A DNA stretch of 64,000 nt from Ignavibacteria bacterium (GTDB taxonomy: Bacteria > Bacteroidota > Ignavibacteria > Kapaibacteriales > UBA4661): contig JAAFIV010000006.1 in the NCBI GenBank assembly GCA_013298775.1, positions 1-64,000 of the forward strand, in the 5' to 3' direction. The translations under genes were made by a program, and so were the position numbers. Below are positions 33,796 through 60,062 of the stretch, in pieces; position 1 is the first letter of the stretch, and every line of letters starts with the position of its first letter. The notes below the pieces were generated by a model. The model saw nothing but the letters and a program-made list of their open reading frames with translations, did not search any database and was not told the origin of the DNA.

Positions 33796-34041
33796 ATGAA
33801 GTGGCTTGTTCTCCTCATCTTACGGGCATATAAACTCGTCCTTTCGCCCATGCTTCCGGCAGCGTGTCGGTTTTATCCAACATGTTCGGAATATGCGATG
33901 GAAGCAGTCGAAAAGCACGGCGTGATGCGGGGTTCATGGCTTGCAGCACAGCGCATTGGGCGTTGTCATCCGTGGCACGCTGGCGGCTTCGACCCTGTAC
34001 CGGAGAGCATTACGCCCTGCCGTTGCGGAGCGAAACGATAG
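33796..34041 (+). CDS. yidD: Membrane protein insertion efficiency factor YidD
   Basis: An 81-residue protein with the YidD signature: [29 protein letters not shown], then [24 protein letters not shown]. It acts with YidC in inner membrane protein insertion. Its stop codon (TAG) is contained in a 14-bp tandem repeat at 34033-34069. A nested pair of mobile elements separates it from yidC. Confidence 0.96.
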
Positions 34042-34069
34042 ACACAAAACGATAGACACAAAACGATAG
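34033..34069. repeat. 14-bp tandem repeat overlapping the yidD stop
   Basis: AAACGATAGACACA occurs twice (34033-34046 and 34047-34060), then AAACGATAG (34061-34069). The first copy includes the last Lys-Arg codons and stop of yidD. Confidence 0.9.
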
Positions 34070-34381: not shown

Positions 34382-34457
34382 GGCAAATGTACATTTTCAA
34401 TTCTCAATCTTCAATCTCTTCTCTTCAACCTCTTCTCACAGTTGAACCACAAGCAGT

Positions 34458-40970: not shown

Positions 40971-42545
40971 TTACTTTGCTTCCAAGCTAAGAACGGGCAA
41001 AATCATTTCCTCAAGCGAAATGCCGCCGTGTTGGAAGCTGTCGCGGTAATGATTCAAGTAATGATTGTAATCCGTTGGATAAACAAAATAAAAATCTTCT
41101 TTCGCAATGATATAATTCGTCGTAACGCTGTGCTTGGGCAAATTATACTCTTCGGGGCGTTCAATCACGAGCGCGTTGCGTTTTTCCGCTTTCACATTGC
41201 GCCCAAACTTAAAGCGCAGACAGGTCGAGGTGTCTTTATCGCCAAGTGCCTTCGCGCCACGCATACAGCGCACAGAGCCGTGGTCGGTGGTGATGATAAT
41301 TTTTGCATTTTTTATGCTTGCCAATGCCTTCAACATACCGTAAAGGCTTGAATGCTGAAACCACGAGCGCGTCAGCGAGCGATACGCAGCTTCATTCGGT
41401 GCGATTTCCTTCAAAATTGGATAATCTGAGCGCGAGTGCGCAATCATATCCACCACGTTCACGACAATTGCGTTAAGGTGATTGTTCGCATAGCTCAAAA
41501 TCTCGTTTTCAATCTTCTTCCCGAAATCGGTATCAATGATTTTCACGTACTTAATATCGTTGCGGAGCTTGATTCTACGCCGTTCCATGTACTTATTCAG
41601 CAAATCTTTCTCAAAGCGATTTTGTCCATGGTCGTCGCCGCTTCCATCCACCCACATTTCGGGATAATGCTTCTGAATCTCTGATGGATACAAGCCTGCA
41701 AAGATGGAATTTCGCGCATACGGCGTAGCTGTCGGCAAAATACCGCAGTAATAGTCCTTCTGCACCGTGAAATGCGGGCGCAGCAATTCTTCCATAAGCT
41801 GCCATTGGTCGAGGCGCATACAATCTACCACAAAGAAAAATACGGGTGCGTTTTCTTTTTGGTCTTTCAGGTGCGGCGTGACGAATTTATCAAGGATTTG
41901 TGGCGAGAGAAGCGGCGTATTTACGTCGTTGGGAGCTTTTAGCCAGCCTTTGTAGGAATCCTCCACAAAGCGCGAAAACTCTGCATTGCACTCGCGCCAC
42001 TGGTTTGCGAGTGTTTCAGACAAGCCCAAATCGGGGTATTTGTCCAATTCCATGCTCCACGACACGAGTTTTGTGTAAATATCAACCCAATCGCTCCATT
42101 CAAGCGGCTCCATGAGGCGACGTGTCACCTCGTTAAAACCTTGCAAATAATCCTGCGTGAATTTCTGCGAGGTAATTTTATCTGATTCCAAAAATTTCTT
42201 ACACGCAGCAAGGATTTGTGCGGGGTTCACGGGTTTCGTGAGGTAATCGTTGATTTTCCGCCCGATTGCCTCTTCCATTACCGTTTCGGCTTCGTTCTTC
42301 GTAACCATCACCACTGGCACGGAATTATCAATATCTTTCAGTTTCGACAAGGTTTCCAAGCCGCTCATACCAATCATGGATTCGTCCAAAAAGACGAGAT
42401 TAGGATGATGTTGCTTAAATAGTTCAATTGCATCTTCACCGTTGGTAGCGGTCAAAACGTCGTAGCCACGCTGCTGGAGGAGGATAGTGTGCGGACGAAG
42501 GAGGTCTATTTCGTCATCAACCCAGAGGATTTGGTGTTTCGGCAT
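40971..42545 (-). CDS. porX: PorX: response regulator with PglZ domain controlling type IX secretion
   Basis: PorX is the response regulator of the PorXY system that controls type IX secretion in Bacteroidota. The 524 residues start with a receiver domain (D10/D11, phosphoacceptor D54 in VFLDESM, K104 in YLTKPVNP). A helical linker (about 125-200) and an alkaline-phosphatase-fold PglZ domain follow (VFFFVVDCMRLDQWQLMEELL; LPTATPYARNSIFAGLYPSEI; TTDHGSVRC). Length and order match known PorX. No porY kinase gene is adjacent. A protein with a type IX sorting domain is encoded at 61635. Confidence 0.93.
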   Translation of the reverse strand: MPKHQILWVDDEIDLLRPHTILLQQRGYDVLTATNGEDAIELFKQHHPNLVFLDESMIGMSGLETLSKLKDIDNSVPVVMVTKNEAETVMEEAIGRKINDYLTKPVNPAQILAACKKFLESDKITSQKFTQDYLQGFNEVTRRLMEPLEWSDWVDIYTKLVSWSMELDKYPDLGLSETLANQWRECNAEFSRFVEDSYKGWLKAPNDVNTPLLSPQILDKFVTPHLKDQKENAPVFFFVVDCMRLDQWQLMEELLRPHFTVQKDYYCGILPTATPYARNSIFAGLYPSEIQKHYPEMWVDGSGDDHGQNRFEKDLLNKYMERRRIKLRNDIKYVKIIDTDFGKKIENEILSYANNHLNAIVVNVVDMIAHSRSDYPILKEIAPNEAAYRSLTRSWFQHSSLYGMLKALASIKNAKIIITTDHGSVRCMRGAKALGDKDTSTCLRFKFGRNVKAEKRNALVIERPEEYNLPKHSVTTNYIIAKEDFYFVYPTDYNHYLNHYRDSFQHGGISLEEMILPVLSLEAK

Positions 42546-44613: not shown

Positions 44614-44684
44614 AAGTATGAAATCTGAAGTATGAGATCTGAAGTATGAAATCTGAAGTATGAAATCTGAAGTGTGAAATCTGA
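44614..44684. repeat. 14-bp tandem repeat upstream of the ybbR-like gene
   Basis: Five copies of AGTATGAAATCTGA, two with single changes, begin seven bases before the minus-strand start codon of the gene ending at 43606. The array must therefore lie in its 5' leader or promoter. Confidence 0.93.
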
Positions 44685-44723
44685 AAGCCTCATCAATACA
44701 AGTCTGCAGCCTACATTTGTCTT

Positions 44724-45449
44724 TTATCCCCGCATAAATACTTGCAAGTCTGCCAAGGTGATTGCGCCTTCGTACAAGGCTTTGCCGATAATGACACCAA
44801 ACATACCAAGTTCTGCAACGCGCTCCACGTCTTGCATGGAGGCTACGCCGCCGCTCGCGATAAAGTGCATTTTGGGGCGTTCTTCGCGGAGGCGTTGGTA
44901 TAAATCTACCGCCGTTCCTTGCATCATGCCGTCTTTGCTAATGTCGGTACACATGGCATATTTCACGCCAGCAGCCTCGTATTCAGCAAGAAATTCCATG
45001 AGCGAAATTTCGGTTACTTCTTCCCAGCCGCTCACCGCAATGCGTTCATTGTTCACGTCGGCGGCAAGGATAATGCGCTCCGCGCCATACTCTCCCAACC
45101 ATTCCAAAAAGAGTGAACGATTTTTCACAGCAATGCTTCCAAGCGTGATTTGACGCGCTCCGCACTCAAAGGCAATCCGCACATCGTCGGCGTGCTGCAA
45201 GCCGCCGCCAAAATCCACGTGCAAATGCTCGGCAGCGCGTGTTATCTGCTCTAGTGTGCGATAATTCACCACGCGCTTTGCTTTCGCGCCGTCCAAGTCC
45301 ACAACGTGCAAGCGTGTTAATCCTGCATCTTGGAAACGCAATGCCATATCGGCTGGCGAAGCGGTGTATTCGGTTTTCGCGCCGTAATCGCCTTGTTGCA
45401 AACGGACGCATTTGCCGTCAATAATATCAATCGCGGGAATAATGTGCAT
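44724..45449 (-). CDS. hisA: Phosphoribosylformimino-5-aminoimidazole carboxamide ribotide isomerase
   Basis: HisA catalyses the Amadori rearrangement in histidine biosynthesis. The 241-residue (beta/alpha)8 protein has the catalytic pair D8 (IPAIDIIDGKCVRL) and D131 (ILAADVNNERI), VDFGGGLQ, GSIAVKN, and TDISKDGMMQGTAVDLYQRL, typical of HisA rather than HisF. No other his gene is adjacent. The C-terminal codons are part of a GCATAAATACT motif found at three other sites. Confidence 0.94.
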   Translation of the reverse strand: MHIIPAIDIIDGKCVRLQQGDYGAKTEYTASPADMALRFQDAGLTRLHVVDLDGAKAKRVVNYRTLEQITRAAEHLHVDFGGGLQHADDVRIAFECGARQITLGSIAVKNRSLFLEWLGEYGAERIILAADVNNERIAVSGWEEVTEISLMEFLAEYEAAGVKYAMCTDISKDGMMQGTAVDLYQRLREERPKMHFIASGGVASMQDVERVAELGMFGVIIGKALYEGAITLADLQVFMRG

Positions 45450-45460
45450 GAAGGAAGTGT

Positions 45461-45534
45461 TGAATGTTGCGTTTTGAATGTTGCGTTTTAAGTATGAGAG
45501 CGCGTTTCAGCCCTCAGATTTCAGCCCTCAGATT
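45461..45534. repeat. Two 14-bp tandem duplications between hisA and the operon upstream
   Basis: TGAATGTTGCGTTT is duplicated at 45461-45488 and TTCAGCCCTCAGAT at 45507-45534. The second ends at the last base before the stop codon of the gene at 45535. Both fill most of this 85-bp gap. Confidence 0.9.
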
Positions 45535-46038
45535 TTATCCCTCATCCTTCGCCTTGAGCTTCCCCGTTGCACCAGCTTCTATGCGCTGCATACGGTTTTC
45601 TGCCACGAGTGCCATCGTTTGGGCGGCAAAGGCACGTGCGGTCTGAAAGCCGCGTAGTTCCAGCGTGAGCATGAGTTCATTGCCTCGTGCGGTTGGAATC
45701 CCTTCCAGCACTTTCAGGCTTTTTGTCGTGATAAGCAGTTTCGGATTCCAGATATGTTTCCAATCGCCTGTATTATTGCGGAATTTCCAGCGTTTGCATT
45801 CGATAGATTGTATCAAGTGCACAGGAATCGTGCGGACTTGAATGTCCGTGCGGGATTGCTTAAAACTTGTCATGGAATATTCGCTGATGTCGGTAACAAA
45901 TTCCAACACCAGCGCATCGTCCTCGAAGCGCATAATTCCTGAACTTCCAGACGAATACGCGCCCTTGAAGAGCGAATAATCATCGTTCGTAACGTCTTTG
46001 TCGAGGAAGAAGGGGATTGCGTCGAGGTCGAGAATCAT
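45535..46038 (-). CDS. Third gene of the ATPase/TOPRIM operon, possible PH-like fold
   Basis: A 167-residue soluble protein with no recognised family. The middle, with strand-rich VRTIPVHLIQSIECKRWKF, PKLLITTKSLKVLEGIP and ELMLTLELRGFQTARAFAAQ, is reminiscent of bacterial PH-like domains ending in a long helix. That comparison is by eye only. ATG 46038 overlaps the stop of the TOPRIM gene by four bases, so it is translationally coupled to the two upstream genes. An upstream in-frame start would overlap the TOPRIM gene much more. Confidence 0.7.
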   Translation of the reverse strand: MILDLDAIPFFLDKDVTNDDYSLFKGAYSSGSSGIMRFEDDALVLEFVTDISEYSMTSFKQSRTDIQVRTIPVHLIQSIECKRWKFRNNTGDWKHIWNPKLLITTKSLKVLEGIPTARGNELMLTLELRGFQTARAFAAQTMALVAENRMQRIEAGATGKLKAKDEG

Positions 46039-46709
46039 GGTGTACTTGGGATTGATATGGAGGAGAAATAGCTGGCAAGAAACGTGTAGAGATTGTGCGC
46101 TTCGTTGTGATTCAGTAACCAATCTTCCGGCTTGGTGTAGTCGCGGTTTTTCTCTTTTGCTTGCTCGCGTTCTTTATTCGATGAGCCGTGTAAAATCTCC
46201 ATGTAACTGTATATCTTGCTCTTGCGAATGGGAACACTCAATGTACGCGACGAGATGCGCTCTTGTTGCGCCAAAATGCACTGTTCGTAAGCGTTCCAGC
46301 AGTCAAGCAAGGGCTGATTTTCAGGATTGATAATGCGTTCAAGCAAGGTTTCTAAATCACCATTATCGTGGTTGTTTGGGAGCAAGAAAATATCAAACTG
46401 CACAGGTAAATCAGGACGCTCTGCGTGTATTGTCTCCGTGATGCTGGCTAATTCTTTGGCAATGCGGTCTTTTGTTCCAGCAAAATTTGTTCCTTGCTCT
46501 TCGGCATCTGCATCAAAAATAATGCAGTTTGTGAGTCCTTGCAGTGCAAACTGTGTGAATGTACTTGCTTGTGCTGCAAGCCCGCCATTTCCCGTACATT
46601 TGACAATACCCTGACCTTCTTTTAAGGTTTGTCCAAAATGGTATTGCACAAAATCTTGGAGAAATTTCACATCGGCAATACCTTCCACAAATAACGCGGC
46701 AGACCTCAT
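46035..46709 (-). CDS. TOPRIM-domain protein (DUF3226/DUF4435-like), partner of the ATPase
   Basis: The 224-residue product shows the TOPRIM pattern: E9 in LFVEGIADVKFL, a glycine-rich KCTGNGGL turn, D66-x-D68 in IIFDADAE, and PNNHDNGDLETLLERI, typical of OLD-like and DUF3226/DUF4435 proteins. TOPRIM domains of this kind are metal-dependent nucleases in OLD systems and in AriB of the PARIS anti-phage system. Its start overlaps the ATPase stop by four bases (ATGA), so both are one translational unit. Confidence 0.82.
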   Translation of the reverse strand: MRSAALFVEGIADVKFLQDFVQYHFGQTLKEGQGIVKCTGNGGLAAQASTFTQFALQGLTNCIIFDADAEEQGTNFAGTKDRIAKELASITETIHAERPDLPVQFDIFLLPNNHDNGDLETLLERIINPENQPLLDCWNAYEQCILAQQERISSRTLSVPIRKSKIYSYMEILHGSSNKEREQAKEKNRDYTKPEDWLLNHNEAHNLYTFLASYFSSISIPSTP

Positions 46710-47722
46710 ACAATCGCCCCTCCACGCAATTCTGTTCCATTTTCTACGGCAGTTTCAAATTGCTCAAAGGTGCTACAAATAGCTTCCACACGCTTTGTAA
46801 CAGGGCTGTCAATCAAGGTAAAACACCGCGCCCGCGCTTGAAACTCCTGCATTTCTGGCTCTTCTAGCACTTCTTTGAAGGCTTCTAAGCATTCCCAGTT
46901 GTGGGTGGTAGCGAAGAGTTGGACATCATGTGTGATAGCAGCTTTCAGAACAGTGCGCCAAAAGTCCCTGAAGTGGTCAATATGCACACCAGAATCTATC
47001 TCGTCAATCATTAAGCGATTGCCAGAATGCACGATAATTTCAATCAAAATACGGAAGAGTTTGATAACGCCATCACCGAAAACACCAAGTGGTAATGCGG
47101 GGTCTACGCCATGCTGATAGACAATCAAATACGGGTCAGCAGAATCTTTCGTGCGAATATCAAAGTTGATGAGTTTGGGCAATAGCACTTTCATATCCTG
47201 GATTAACTGCTCACGGAGCGTCGTCCTTGTCTGTATTTCATCCTCAAAAACTTTTGCTAAATAATGCTCATAACCATTGAAAAATGGTAGGTATGGCATG
47301 ATGAAAGCATGGATGCTCCCATAGGTATTACTGACAGATAACTTATCTTCAATCTGCGAAAAAGGCGGTTCACACGACCATTCTGCTTTTCCATTGATTG
47401 AATCATACTTTATTTCTACCGTGTAGCTAGGGTCGCAAGCAAATTTTATTGTAATACCTTTTTTCCATTCAGGGTTATTACGATTCGCAAAGTAGTCCAA
47501 ATACGAAGTGTTTATGCGGTCAAATCGCCTAAAAACCATTAATGCTGTCAGCATTCGCCATCGCCAAACTTCCGCAGATTTTGTAATAAGCAACGCCTCC
47601 AACACACTCGTCTTCCCCACATTGTTATCACCAACGATGAGGTTGAACTGCCCGATATTGTGCATTTCAAAATGCTCGAAGCGTTTGAAATTCTGGGCCG
47701 TGAAGGAGGTAATATGCGCCAT
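46706..47722 (-). CDS. AAA_15/OLD-type ABC-like ATPase
   Basis: A 338-residue SMC/ABC-like ATPase: the Walker A motif VGDNNVGKTS is at 30-39, a degenerate signature FGDGVIKLFRI at 215-225, Walker B LMIDEIDSGVH at 237-247, and the H-loop ATTHN at 271-275. The architecture is that of the AAA_15/AAA_21 ATPases in OLD, PARIS (AriA) and related defence systems, with no TOPRIM domain fused. The TOPRIM gene follows with a 4-bp overlap. fabF lies 44 bp upstream on the same strand. Confidence 0.88.
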   Translation of the reverse strand: MAHITSFTAQNFKRFEHFEMHNIGQFNLIVGDNNVGKTSVLEALLITKSAEVWRWRMLTALMVFRRFDRINTSYLDYFANRNNPEWKKGITIKFACDPSYTVEIKYDSINGKAEWSCEPPFSQIEDKLSVSNTYGSIHAFIMPYLPFFNGYEHYLAKVFEDEIQTRTTLREQLIQDMKVLLPKLINFDIRTKDSADPYLIVYQHGVDPALPLGVFGDGVIKLFRILIEIIVHSGNRLMIDEIDSGVHIDHFRDFWRTVLKAAITHDVQLFATTHNWECLEAFKEVLEEPEMQEFQARARCFTLIDSPVTKRVEAICSTFEQFETAVENGTELRGGAIV

Positions 47723-51215: not shown

Positions 51216-51244
51216 AAAAATATTTAGTTGCAAGATGACGTAAA

Positions 51245-51308
51245 AAGTTTTTCACATAAAGTTTTTCACATAAAGTTTTTCACATAAAGTTTTTCACATA
51301 AAGTTTTT
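51245..51308. repeat. 14-bp tandem repeat upstream of the THUMP methyltransferase gene
   Basis: Four perfect copies of AAGTTTTTCACATA (51245-51300) and a partial fifth (51301-51308) end about 95 bp before the start of the plus-strand gene. It also lies just outside the MFS operator. Confidence 0.94.
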
Positions 51309-51403
51309 CCCCGCCGCTTTTCATGCTATCTTTGTGCGGCTCTGCATTCACATTCAAATAGCATTGCACCAAAACAGCATTCTCATTTTTTTTCTCCATT
51401 TTC

Positions 51404-57907: not shown

Positions 57908-58061
57908 AAGCATGGACGCAAGTTTTTATGCGGGTTGTAGAATTTTATCTCAACTTCAACAAAAAATAATGAGAAAAAAATCTTCATTGGTAACGCAAAT
58001 TGATAGCGCAGCACTGGTAGCGCAGATGTCCCTCTTTTCCCGTTTGTTGAAGTGATTGCAC

Positions 58062-60062
58062 ATGAAAAAACTTGTTCTCAAAAAAACGTCATTTGATGCG
58101 GCTTCGGGGAAATCTGCGAAGGTGTACAAAATAAACTATGCCGAAGAGCTAAACGAGGCGCAACTTGATGCCGTCATGCACGACACGGGCGCAGCACTCG
58201 TGGTCGCGGGCGCGGGGACAGGAAAAACACGGACACTCGTGTACCGCGTGGCACGACTCATTGAGGATGGTATAGAACCCGCATCAATCCTGCTTCTTAC
58301 CTTTACGCGCAAGTCTGCCGCCGAAATGCTTCGCCGCGCAACACAACTGCTCGACGGCAGATGTGAAGCGGTTTCTGGCGGCACATTCCATTCCTTTGCG
58401 CATGGCTATCTGCGCCGTTTGCCCAAACACCTCACCGCGCTTGGTTTGGACAATAATTTCACCGTTCTCGACCAATCCGATGCCGAAGATGTGGTGAATC
58501 TCCTGCGTTCACAGCTTGTTGGCAATGATAAAAAACGTCGCTTCCCGCGTAAGAACACGCTGTTTGCCATGTTTAGTGCGGAAGCAAATTGCCGCAAAGC
58601 TCTTGAAATCATTATTCACGACGATTACCCGCAATTCGAGGAAGATACCCCTGCAATCAAGCAACTACGCGACTTCTACGTCGCCTACAAACGCAAACAC
58701 AACCTTGTGGATTACGATGATTTGCTTGTGCTATTTTTGGAGCTACTTCGCACCAATGCTGACCTCCGGCGCGATGTGCAGAAGCAATATCGCTATATCA
58801 TGGTGGATGAATATCAAGACACAAACCAGCTTCAGCATGAATTGGTGCTGTGTTTGGCGGCAATCCACGAAAATATCATGGCAGTTGGCGACGACGCGCA
58901 AAGCATATACTCTTTTCGCGGTGCGAACTACGAAAATATCATGCGCTTTCCCGATTCATTTCGGCATTGTCGCTTGATTAAGTTGGAAGAAAATTTTCGC
59001 TCCACACAACCCATTTTAAGCCTCACGAACGAGATTATCCGCCGCGCTTTGTATCGGTACGACAAGGAATTGTATTCGCGCAAATCGGGCAGCACTTTCC
59101 CGATGGTCATTCAATGCGACAAAGAGGCGCAGCAGTCGCAATTTATCGTGCAGCAAATCTTGGAATACCGCGAAGAAGGCTTACCGCTTGACGATATTGC
59201 TGTGCTGGTGCGCTCTGGCTTTCATTCTTTCGACCTCGAAGTGGAGCTAAATCGCGCCAATATTCCCTACCAAAAATTTGGCGGATTTAAGTTCGTCGAA
59301 ACCTCGCACATCAAAGATATTATCGCGCATTTGCGGGTGTTAGTCAATCCCAAAGATGCCGTGAGTTGGAATCGAATTTTGTTGCTGCTGGAAGGCGTTG
59401 GACCAAAAACTGCGCTGAAGGTGATAGATGCGATTGTTGCGGGCAATGTGACGCTGGAGACCGCACACAATCTGGGCGAAATAGCACGCGGCGATGAGCA
59501 AATCCGCCGCTTGTTCAATTTACTTGCTCGCCTGAACACCGAGAAACTCACGCCGTCCGAGCAGACGTGGCAAATCATTGACCACTATCGCCCGCAAATG
59601 AAGCGTAAGTACGACGATTACAAAAAACGCACAAAAGATATTGAAACGTTTGGCGGCATCACCGAGCGGTATCGCAGTATTAACGCGCTCTTGGCGGATA
59701 TGGCAATCGAACCGCCCGTAGAATCCGTCGAGGATATTGCCGCAACAGGCAGCGAAGATGAGTTCTTGACCATTTCCACCATTCACTCTGCAAAGGGCTT
59801 AGAATGGGGCGTTGTGTTCGTGATTTGGACGCTTGACGGGCGTTTTCCACCCGTGCGAGCTTTCGATACGGAAGAGAGCTTGGAAGAAGAACGGCGTTTG
59901 TTTTACGTTGCTTGCACACGAGCAAAGGAGCGGCTTTTTCTTACGTATCCCATTAACATTTTCGACCGTGAAACAGGCATGGTGCTAGGAAAAGTAACAC
60001 GTTTTCTGGACGGATTGCCAGAGGAATTAACTGAGAAATACTTATTGGCGGATGAAGAATAA
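58062..60062 (+). CDS. UvrD/PcrA-type ATP-dependent DNA helicase
   Basis: A 666-residue superfamily 1A helicase with the Q motif (LNEAQLDAV), Walker A GAGTGKTRTL (50-59), motif Ia LLLTFTRKSAAEM, Walker B DEYQDTNQLQ, motif III AVGDDAQSIYSFRGA, motif IV EENFRSTQPIL, and the C-terminal TIHSAKGLEW and YVACTRAKERLFLTYP motifs. It is slightly shorter than PcrA. UvrD, PcrA and Rep cannot be told apart by eye. ATG 58062 was preferred to a TTG two codons upstream. Confidence 0.94.
   Translation: MKKLVLKKTSFDAASGKSAKVYKINYAEELNEAQLDAVMHDTGAALVVAGAGTGKTRTLVYRVARLIEDGIEPASILLLTFTRKSAAEMLRRATQLLDGRCEAVSGGTFHSFAHGYLRRLPKHLTALGLDNNFTVLDQSDAEDVVNLLRSQLVGNDKKRRFPRKNTLFAMFSAEANCRKALEIIIHDDYPQFEEDTPAIKQLRDFYVAYKRKHNLVDYDDLLVLFLELLRTNADLRRDVQKQYRYIMVDEYQDTNQLQHELVLCLAAIHENIMAVGDDAQSIYSFRGANYENIMRFPDSFRHCRLIKLEENFRSTQPILSLTNEIIRRALYRYDKELYSRKSGSTFPMVIQCDKEAQQSQFIVQQILEYREEGLPLDDIAVLVRSGFHSFDLEVELNRANIPYQKFGGFKFVETSHIKDIIAHLRVLVNPKDAVSWNRILLLLEGVGPKTALKVIDAIVAGNVTLETAHNLGEIARGDEQIRRLFNLLARLNTEKLTPSEQTWQIIDHYRPQMKRKYDDYKKRTKDIETFGGITERYRSINALLADMAIEPPVESVEDIAATGSEDEFLTISTIHSAKGLEWGVVFVIWTLDGRFPPVRAFDTEESLEEERRLFYVACTRAKERLFLTYPINIFDRETGMVLGKVTRFLDGLPEELTEKYLLADEE

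Follow-up and report, generated by a model that had tools for sequence, protein, structure and literature searches.

A candidate ATPase-TOPRIM defence pair with a PH-like third gene in Ignavibacteria: family assignment, distribution and mosaic evolution

The locus and its junctions

Three minus-strand ORFs, in the order ATPase, TOPRIM gene and third gene, lie between fabF and hisA in an Ignavibacteria bacterium (GenBank assembly GCA_013298775.1, contig JAAFIV010000006.1). Named relatives likewise point to the Kapabacteria/Ignavibacteria group for this genome. The window analysed is the stretch of 64,000 nucleotides from position 1 to 64,000 of this contig, and the genome that it belongs to is referred to as G000. 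Upstream of the trio, fabF reaches 47767, and downstream hisA starts at 45449. A preliminary description, made from the sequence alone, had proposed a coupled three-gene unit with two four-base overlaps at a site unusual for such genes; both junctions, which are ATGA, and the position were confirmed (Table 1). Most of the seven species that carry the trio have ATGA between ATPase and TOPRIM gene, G006 being different.

Table 1. Features of the trio and of its edges in the window
Feature	Position	Strand	Basis
ATPase gene, ABC/OLD-type AAA_15, 338 aa	46706-47722	-	Pfam, PADLOC, structure model
TOPRIM gene (DUF3226), 224 aa, probable nuclease effector	46035-46709	-	Pfam, PADLOC, residues
Third gene, 167 aa from ATG, PH-like fold, constant part	45535-46038	-	Model, 7/7 linkage in genus
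ATPase N-terminal segment, residues 1-46, with Walker A, constant part	47585-47722	-	Identity across 7 species
Exchanged cassette formed by the ATPase core (residues 47 to about 265), probably the sensor	46928-47584	-	Trees, identity, GC
ATPase C-terminal tail, residues 278-338, exchanged with TOPRIM	46706-46891	-	Distance correlations
ATGA overlap, ATPase stop/TOPRIM start	46706-46709	-	Sequence
ATGA overlap, TOPRIM stop/third-gene start, kept in 7/7 species	46035-46038	-	Sequence
14-bp-period tandem arrays, two coinciding exactly with the trio's downstream edge	44614-44685, 45460-45489, 45505-45544, 51244-51309, 34033-34069, 34408-34437		

Family assignment of the ATPase-TOPRIM pair

The ATPase matches AAA_15 (2.2e-17) and also AAA_21 in Pfam. 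Its best PADLOC matches are AbiLi (1.4e-44) and PDC-M38A (3e-39), with five PDC-M38A models matching at 2e-18 or better, and AriA is found at 1.7e-17. The TOPRIM protein matches DUF3226 in Pfam (1.1e-14), while OLD-like_TOPRIM falls just short of the threshold (9.3e-4). In PADLOC its match to PDC-M38B (3.8e-10, residues 1-136) is weak, yet this is the sole family matched. The Pfam and PADLOC models gave no match to AriB or DUF4435 for the TOPRIM protein of the window, and AbiLii models (PADLOC, E up to 1) matched neither it nor the third protein. The allele in G006 matches DUF4435 at 0.0089, which is below the cut-off. A haemagglutinin appeared among the sequence hits to solved structures for the TOPRIM protein, at E values of 0.3-1, and was rejected as chance.

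Walker A (GDNNVGKT, with K37), Walker B (D240-E241) and the H-loop residue H274 are all present in the ATPase, and an alignment of 26 ATPases shows no variation at Walker A, D240/E241 or H274. The TOPRIM protein has E9 and D66xD68; in G007 the DxD motif is DAD at 95. With Z values of about 16-17.5, the ATPase model (pLDDT 85) comes nearest in fold to the heads of Rad50/SMC proteins and to PtuA from Septu and retrons. AriA structures were not among these top matches, an absence that, concerning the top matches only, proves nothing.

Of 395 genomes examined in the phylum, 16 carry DUF3226 genes, and an ATPase of this kind accompanies them at 26 of 27 loci. The earlier reading as an AAA_15/OLD-like ATPase with a TOPRIM partner is well founded, and the pair is, judged by its matches, a known kind of candidate phage-defence system. 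The unit was also put forward as a candidate undescribed system, which can no longer be maintained as the pair matches an existing PADLOC candidate, PDC-M38A/B. The literature searched held no paper naming DUF3226 or PDC-M38.

The trio shares adjacent genes and matches for both proteins with PDC-M38, and differs by the extra PH-like gene. AbiL of Lactococcus is alike in its ATPase-TOPRIM association (PMC12409363) and in the AbiLi match; however, the TOPRIM protein of the trio lacks an AbiLii match and a third gene is added. PARIS also has an ABC ATPase sensor and a TOPRIM nuclease on separate genes, and probably resembles the trio in mechanism: its ATPase hexamer sequesters a TOPRIM tRNase, which is released when a phage protein binds (PMC12409363). 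The trio differs from PARIS in its DUF3226 TOPRIM without an AriB match, its weaker ATPase match and its third gene. OLD nucleases and GajA of Gabija contain both modules but fused in one polypeptide, whereas the trio has separate genes. In Gabija, the UvrD-type GajB is adjacent, whereas the trio has no neighbouring UvrD partner, the UvrD-type helicase of the window (58056-60062) being 10 kb away.

Distribution and genomic sites

The genus-level counts rest on eight genomes. The complete trio, in the same gene order, was found in seven of the eight species, a recurrence beyond chance, and G003 has none. The related genomes are all draft assemblies, in which losses near contig ends are uncertain. 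No trio was seen beyond the genus among the loci examined.

Two types of site were found. In G001, G002, G004, G006 and G007, the trio follows a GroES gene and lies between genes for proteins of 136 aa and 156 aa; the trio of G002 is split over two contigs, and the 156-aa gene is broken in G001. In G000 and its sister G005 the trio follows fabF, and the GroES, 136-aa and 156-aa genes were not found in these two draft genomes. When the two sites are compared, DNA similarity sets in no more than 3 nt from the ATPase ATG and breaks off 36-42 nt short of the third gene's end, so that its limits are those of the trio itself. Whichever site is the older, it was the three genes that moved. G003 has the GroES gene, with no trio beside it. 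In G005 the trio is at a contig end and the third gene has an altered tail (L067:1-135); its last codons enter what we take to be sequence resembling the end of an insertion sequence, at the contig end. Because the same junction is found in 7/7 species, the genes moved jointly between sites and they are jointly absent from G003, the conserved trio and its junctions favour a functional unit, although vertical inheritance of the third gene as a downstream passenger is quite possible.

The flanking 136-aa and 156-aa genes (L068:9061-9471 and L068:11640-12110), present in five species, are without a Pfam match. Further ATPase-TOPRIM pairs were found close to the GroES-type locus in G007 (L070:2-244 with L118) and G002 (L071:1567-3183), and in G000 beside a paralogue of a 314-aa gene (L075:6138-7756). 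The second pair of G007 seems, from two contig ends, to have the third gene on one side and, on the other, the 156-aa gene, which in L118 also follows it. The second pairs of these three genomes suggest a hot spot for ATPase-TOPRIM pairs.

The third gene

No meaningful match to the third protein was found in Pfam, NCBIfam, PADLOC or PHROG, and sequence searches returned no solved relative. The AlphaFold model, from seven orthologues, is of modest to low confidence (pLDDT 64) and folds into a barrel of seven strands plus a helix at the C-terminus (residues 128-156). The top PDB matches to this pLDDT 64 model are nearly all of the PH/PTB type, with Z up to 11.7, which bears out the PH-like fold proposed beforehand. 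Relatives of the protein match bPH_3 (Pfam) at 0.002-0.004, below the cut-off; the window protein does not. Bacterial PH-like (bPH) proteins, which the third protein resembles in its modelled fold and through these relatives, are stand-alone elsewhere, whereas the protein of this genus is extended at its N-terminus and carries an insertion in a loop (up to WKHxWNPK). PH-like domains have been reported in some homologues of SNIPE, a membrane-bound defence nuclease (PMC13190303).

Purifying selection acts on the third gene (dN/dS 0.06-0.17). In a profile search, 58 of 395 genomes in the phylum and 21 of 123 in the order contained relatives. The 42 of them that were retrieved from beyond the genus are all stand-alone, with no ATPase or TOPRIM gene in the 1.5 kb read on either side, whereas the close orthologues within the genus are linked to the pair in 7/7. 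Occurrence without the pair, which the preliminary description had named as counting against a three-gene system, was thus seen among distant relatives but not among close orthologues. Only one member of the family was found in each genus genome searched. It appears that the third gene was recruited into the unit from a widespread stand-alone family.

Mosaic evolution of the locus

FabF groups the species into the sister pairs G000/G005, G001/G006 and G002/G004 (98-100 % identity; 98 % for G000 and G005). The rho values given for distances are descriptive, as species-pair distances are non-independent, and the tree tests carry the claim of mosaic structure. The ATPase N-terminus (residues 1-46) is 89-100 % identical at the amino acid level across seven species, with distances that track fabF (descriptive rho 0.84), and both this segment and the third gene fit the species history given by FabF. 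In contrast, the ATPase core of G000 shares only 40 % amino acid identity with that of its sister G005 and 74 % with that of G001. The divergence is abrupt, starting directly after Walker A, and is seen at the DNA level too. The GC content of the core is 0.408 against 0.484 for the window (sd 0.037). For the core, tree tests reject both G000+G005 (p-AU 1.3e-4) and G001+G006 (p-AU 1.1e-5), whereas the FabF and third-gene trees contain both groupings and reject G000+G001, though in the third-gene tree support for G001+G006 and G002+G004 is low. The core has therefore been replaced between sister species by exchange. Rapid divergence of the core was rejected as an explanation because the core of the non-sister G001 is far closer to that of G000 than is the core of G005.

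Distances for the ATPase C-tail correlate with those of the TOPRIM protein (rho 0.95) and not with fabF (rho 0.13), again as descriptive values. At least three alleles were found among the TOPRIM proteins of the seven species, with the TOPRIM/third-gene ATGA unchanged. The TOPRIM of G004 is of the kind found in G000 and G005 (85-86 %), and its sister G002 carries another. The C-tail and the TOPRIM gene thus make up a second block, exchanged together. An acquired cassette, as originally suggested, is accordingly right only in part: the trio as such is resident throughout the genus, and it is the ATPase core and TOPRIM module that have been exchanged.

Genomic surroundings and carriage

No known defence genes are linked to the trio in the 64-kb window, and its surroundings do not form a defence island. 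ATPase-DUF3226 pairs often lie between housekeeping genes, and in L117 and L126 the pair is next to a gene reading as sucC. In another genome of the phylum a pair is located between nuoE and nuoF (L132:1333-3032); among the loci read, no ATPase from beyond the genus scores higher than the one in this pair. The plasmid collection gave no match for the third or TOPRIM protein, phages and viral contigs gave none for the third protein, and the ATPase had only distant partial matches. On these searches, plasmid or phage carriage of the trio was rejected.

Proposed function and alternatives

We favour, with a probability of roughly 0.55, a split OLD/AbiL-type ATPase-TOPRIM pair (PDC-M38-like) that would act as an abortive-infection or nuclease defence unit, together with a genus-specific PH-like accessory. 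The defence reading is drawn from the family matches, the intact catalytic motifs, the ATPase fold, the conservation of the trio, its two sites with homology confined to the three genes, the mosaic exchange and the mechanism of PARIS. It is weakened by the lack of linked defence genes in the window, by the poor PDC-M38B match, by the low confidence of the third-protein model (pLDDT 64), by the stand-alone third-gene family elsewhere and by a place for the third gene that is perhaps historical, and exchange of the ATPase core could reflect selection other than by phage.

By analogy, an ATPase oligomer would keep the TOPRIM nuclease inactive and the exchangeable core would sense a phage trigger. 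The ATPase C-tail may dock its matching TOPRIM, which would explain the joint exchange of the two. Once triggered, the TOPRIM protein would stop the infected cell by cleaving either tRNA, like the PARIS nuclease, or DNA, like OLD. Conserved whichever alleles adjoin it, the PH-like protein is probably a common adaptor, which might bind the constant N-terminal face of the ATPase or place the complex at the membrane. A more elaborate version, in which the immune unit needs the PH-like protein as its third component and specificity is changed by two independently swapped cassettes between constant ends, is speculative and on balance doubtful. Its cassettes would be, with the same doubt, a stretch of the ATPase gene that encodes the sensor core and an effector module in which the ATPase C-tail is joined with the TOPRIM gene, and its constant ends, just as tentatively, the ATPase N-terminus and the PH gene.

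The strongest competitor, which we regard as quite possible though less probable than the favoured reading, treats the third gene as a passenger: a PH-like gene native to the genus, by chance downstream of a two-gene system and linked to it through translational coupling only. All 42 distant relatives stand alone beside other, mostly housekeeping, genes, the third gene tracks the species tree with one family member per genus genome searched, and other pairs in the same genomes are without it (L073, L074 and L075). However, the third gene moved with the pair between the two sites when the outer neighbours did not, it is absent where the pair is absent (G003), and the exact ATGA junction persists in 7/7 despite TOPRIM exchange.

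The remaining alternatives concern the pair itself. Its placement in or beside housekeeping operons (nuoE-pair-nuoF, sucC) and not in defence islands, as well as the annotation of AAA_21 as a putative AbiEii-type toxin, would suit a toxin-antitoxin-like or DNA-repair unit in which the ATPase restrains a TOPRIM nuclease acting as a toxin of a selfish or stress-response kind. We consider this unlikely, as replacement of a sensor-like core between sisters is more typical of an arms race and the closest PADLOC models are defence or candidate defence proteins. The likeness to PARIS (AriA/AriB) suggested at the outset has in its favour the separate ATPase and TOPRIM genes and the AriA match, but AbiLi and PDC-M38A outscore AriA by more than 20 orders of magnitude, no AriB model matches and DUF3226 stands in place of DUF4435, making a PARIS system highly improbable.

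ATPase-TOPRIM pairs recur in many defence systems, and the phage-sensing part is known for few. Under the favoured defence reading, the locus offers natural domain swaps, with sister species that differ in the ATPase core alone or in the C-tail and TOPRIM alone, so that sensor and effector specificity are directly testable by exchanging alleles. The trio would also show how a stand-alone PH-like protein can join an ATPase-TOPRIM unit.

Other features of the window

A response regulator fused to a PglZ domain is encoded at 40971-42545. By its layout, which is that of PorX of the type IX secretion system, it is not a defence PglZ. Short tandem repeats of 14-bp period, their units differing between arrays, occupy several intergenic gaps of the window.
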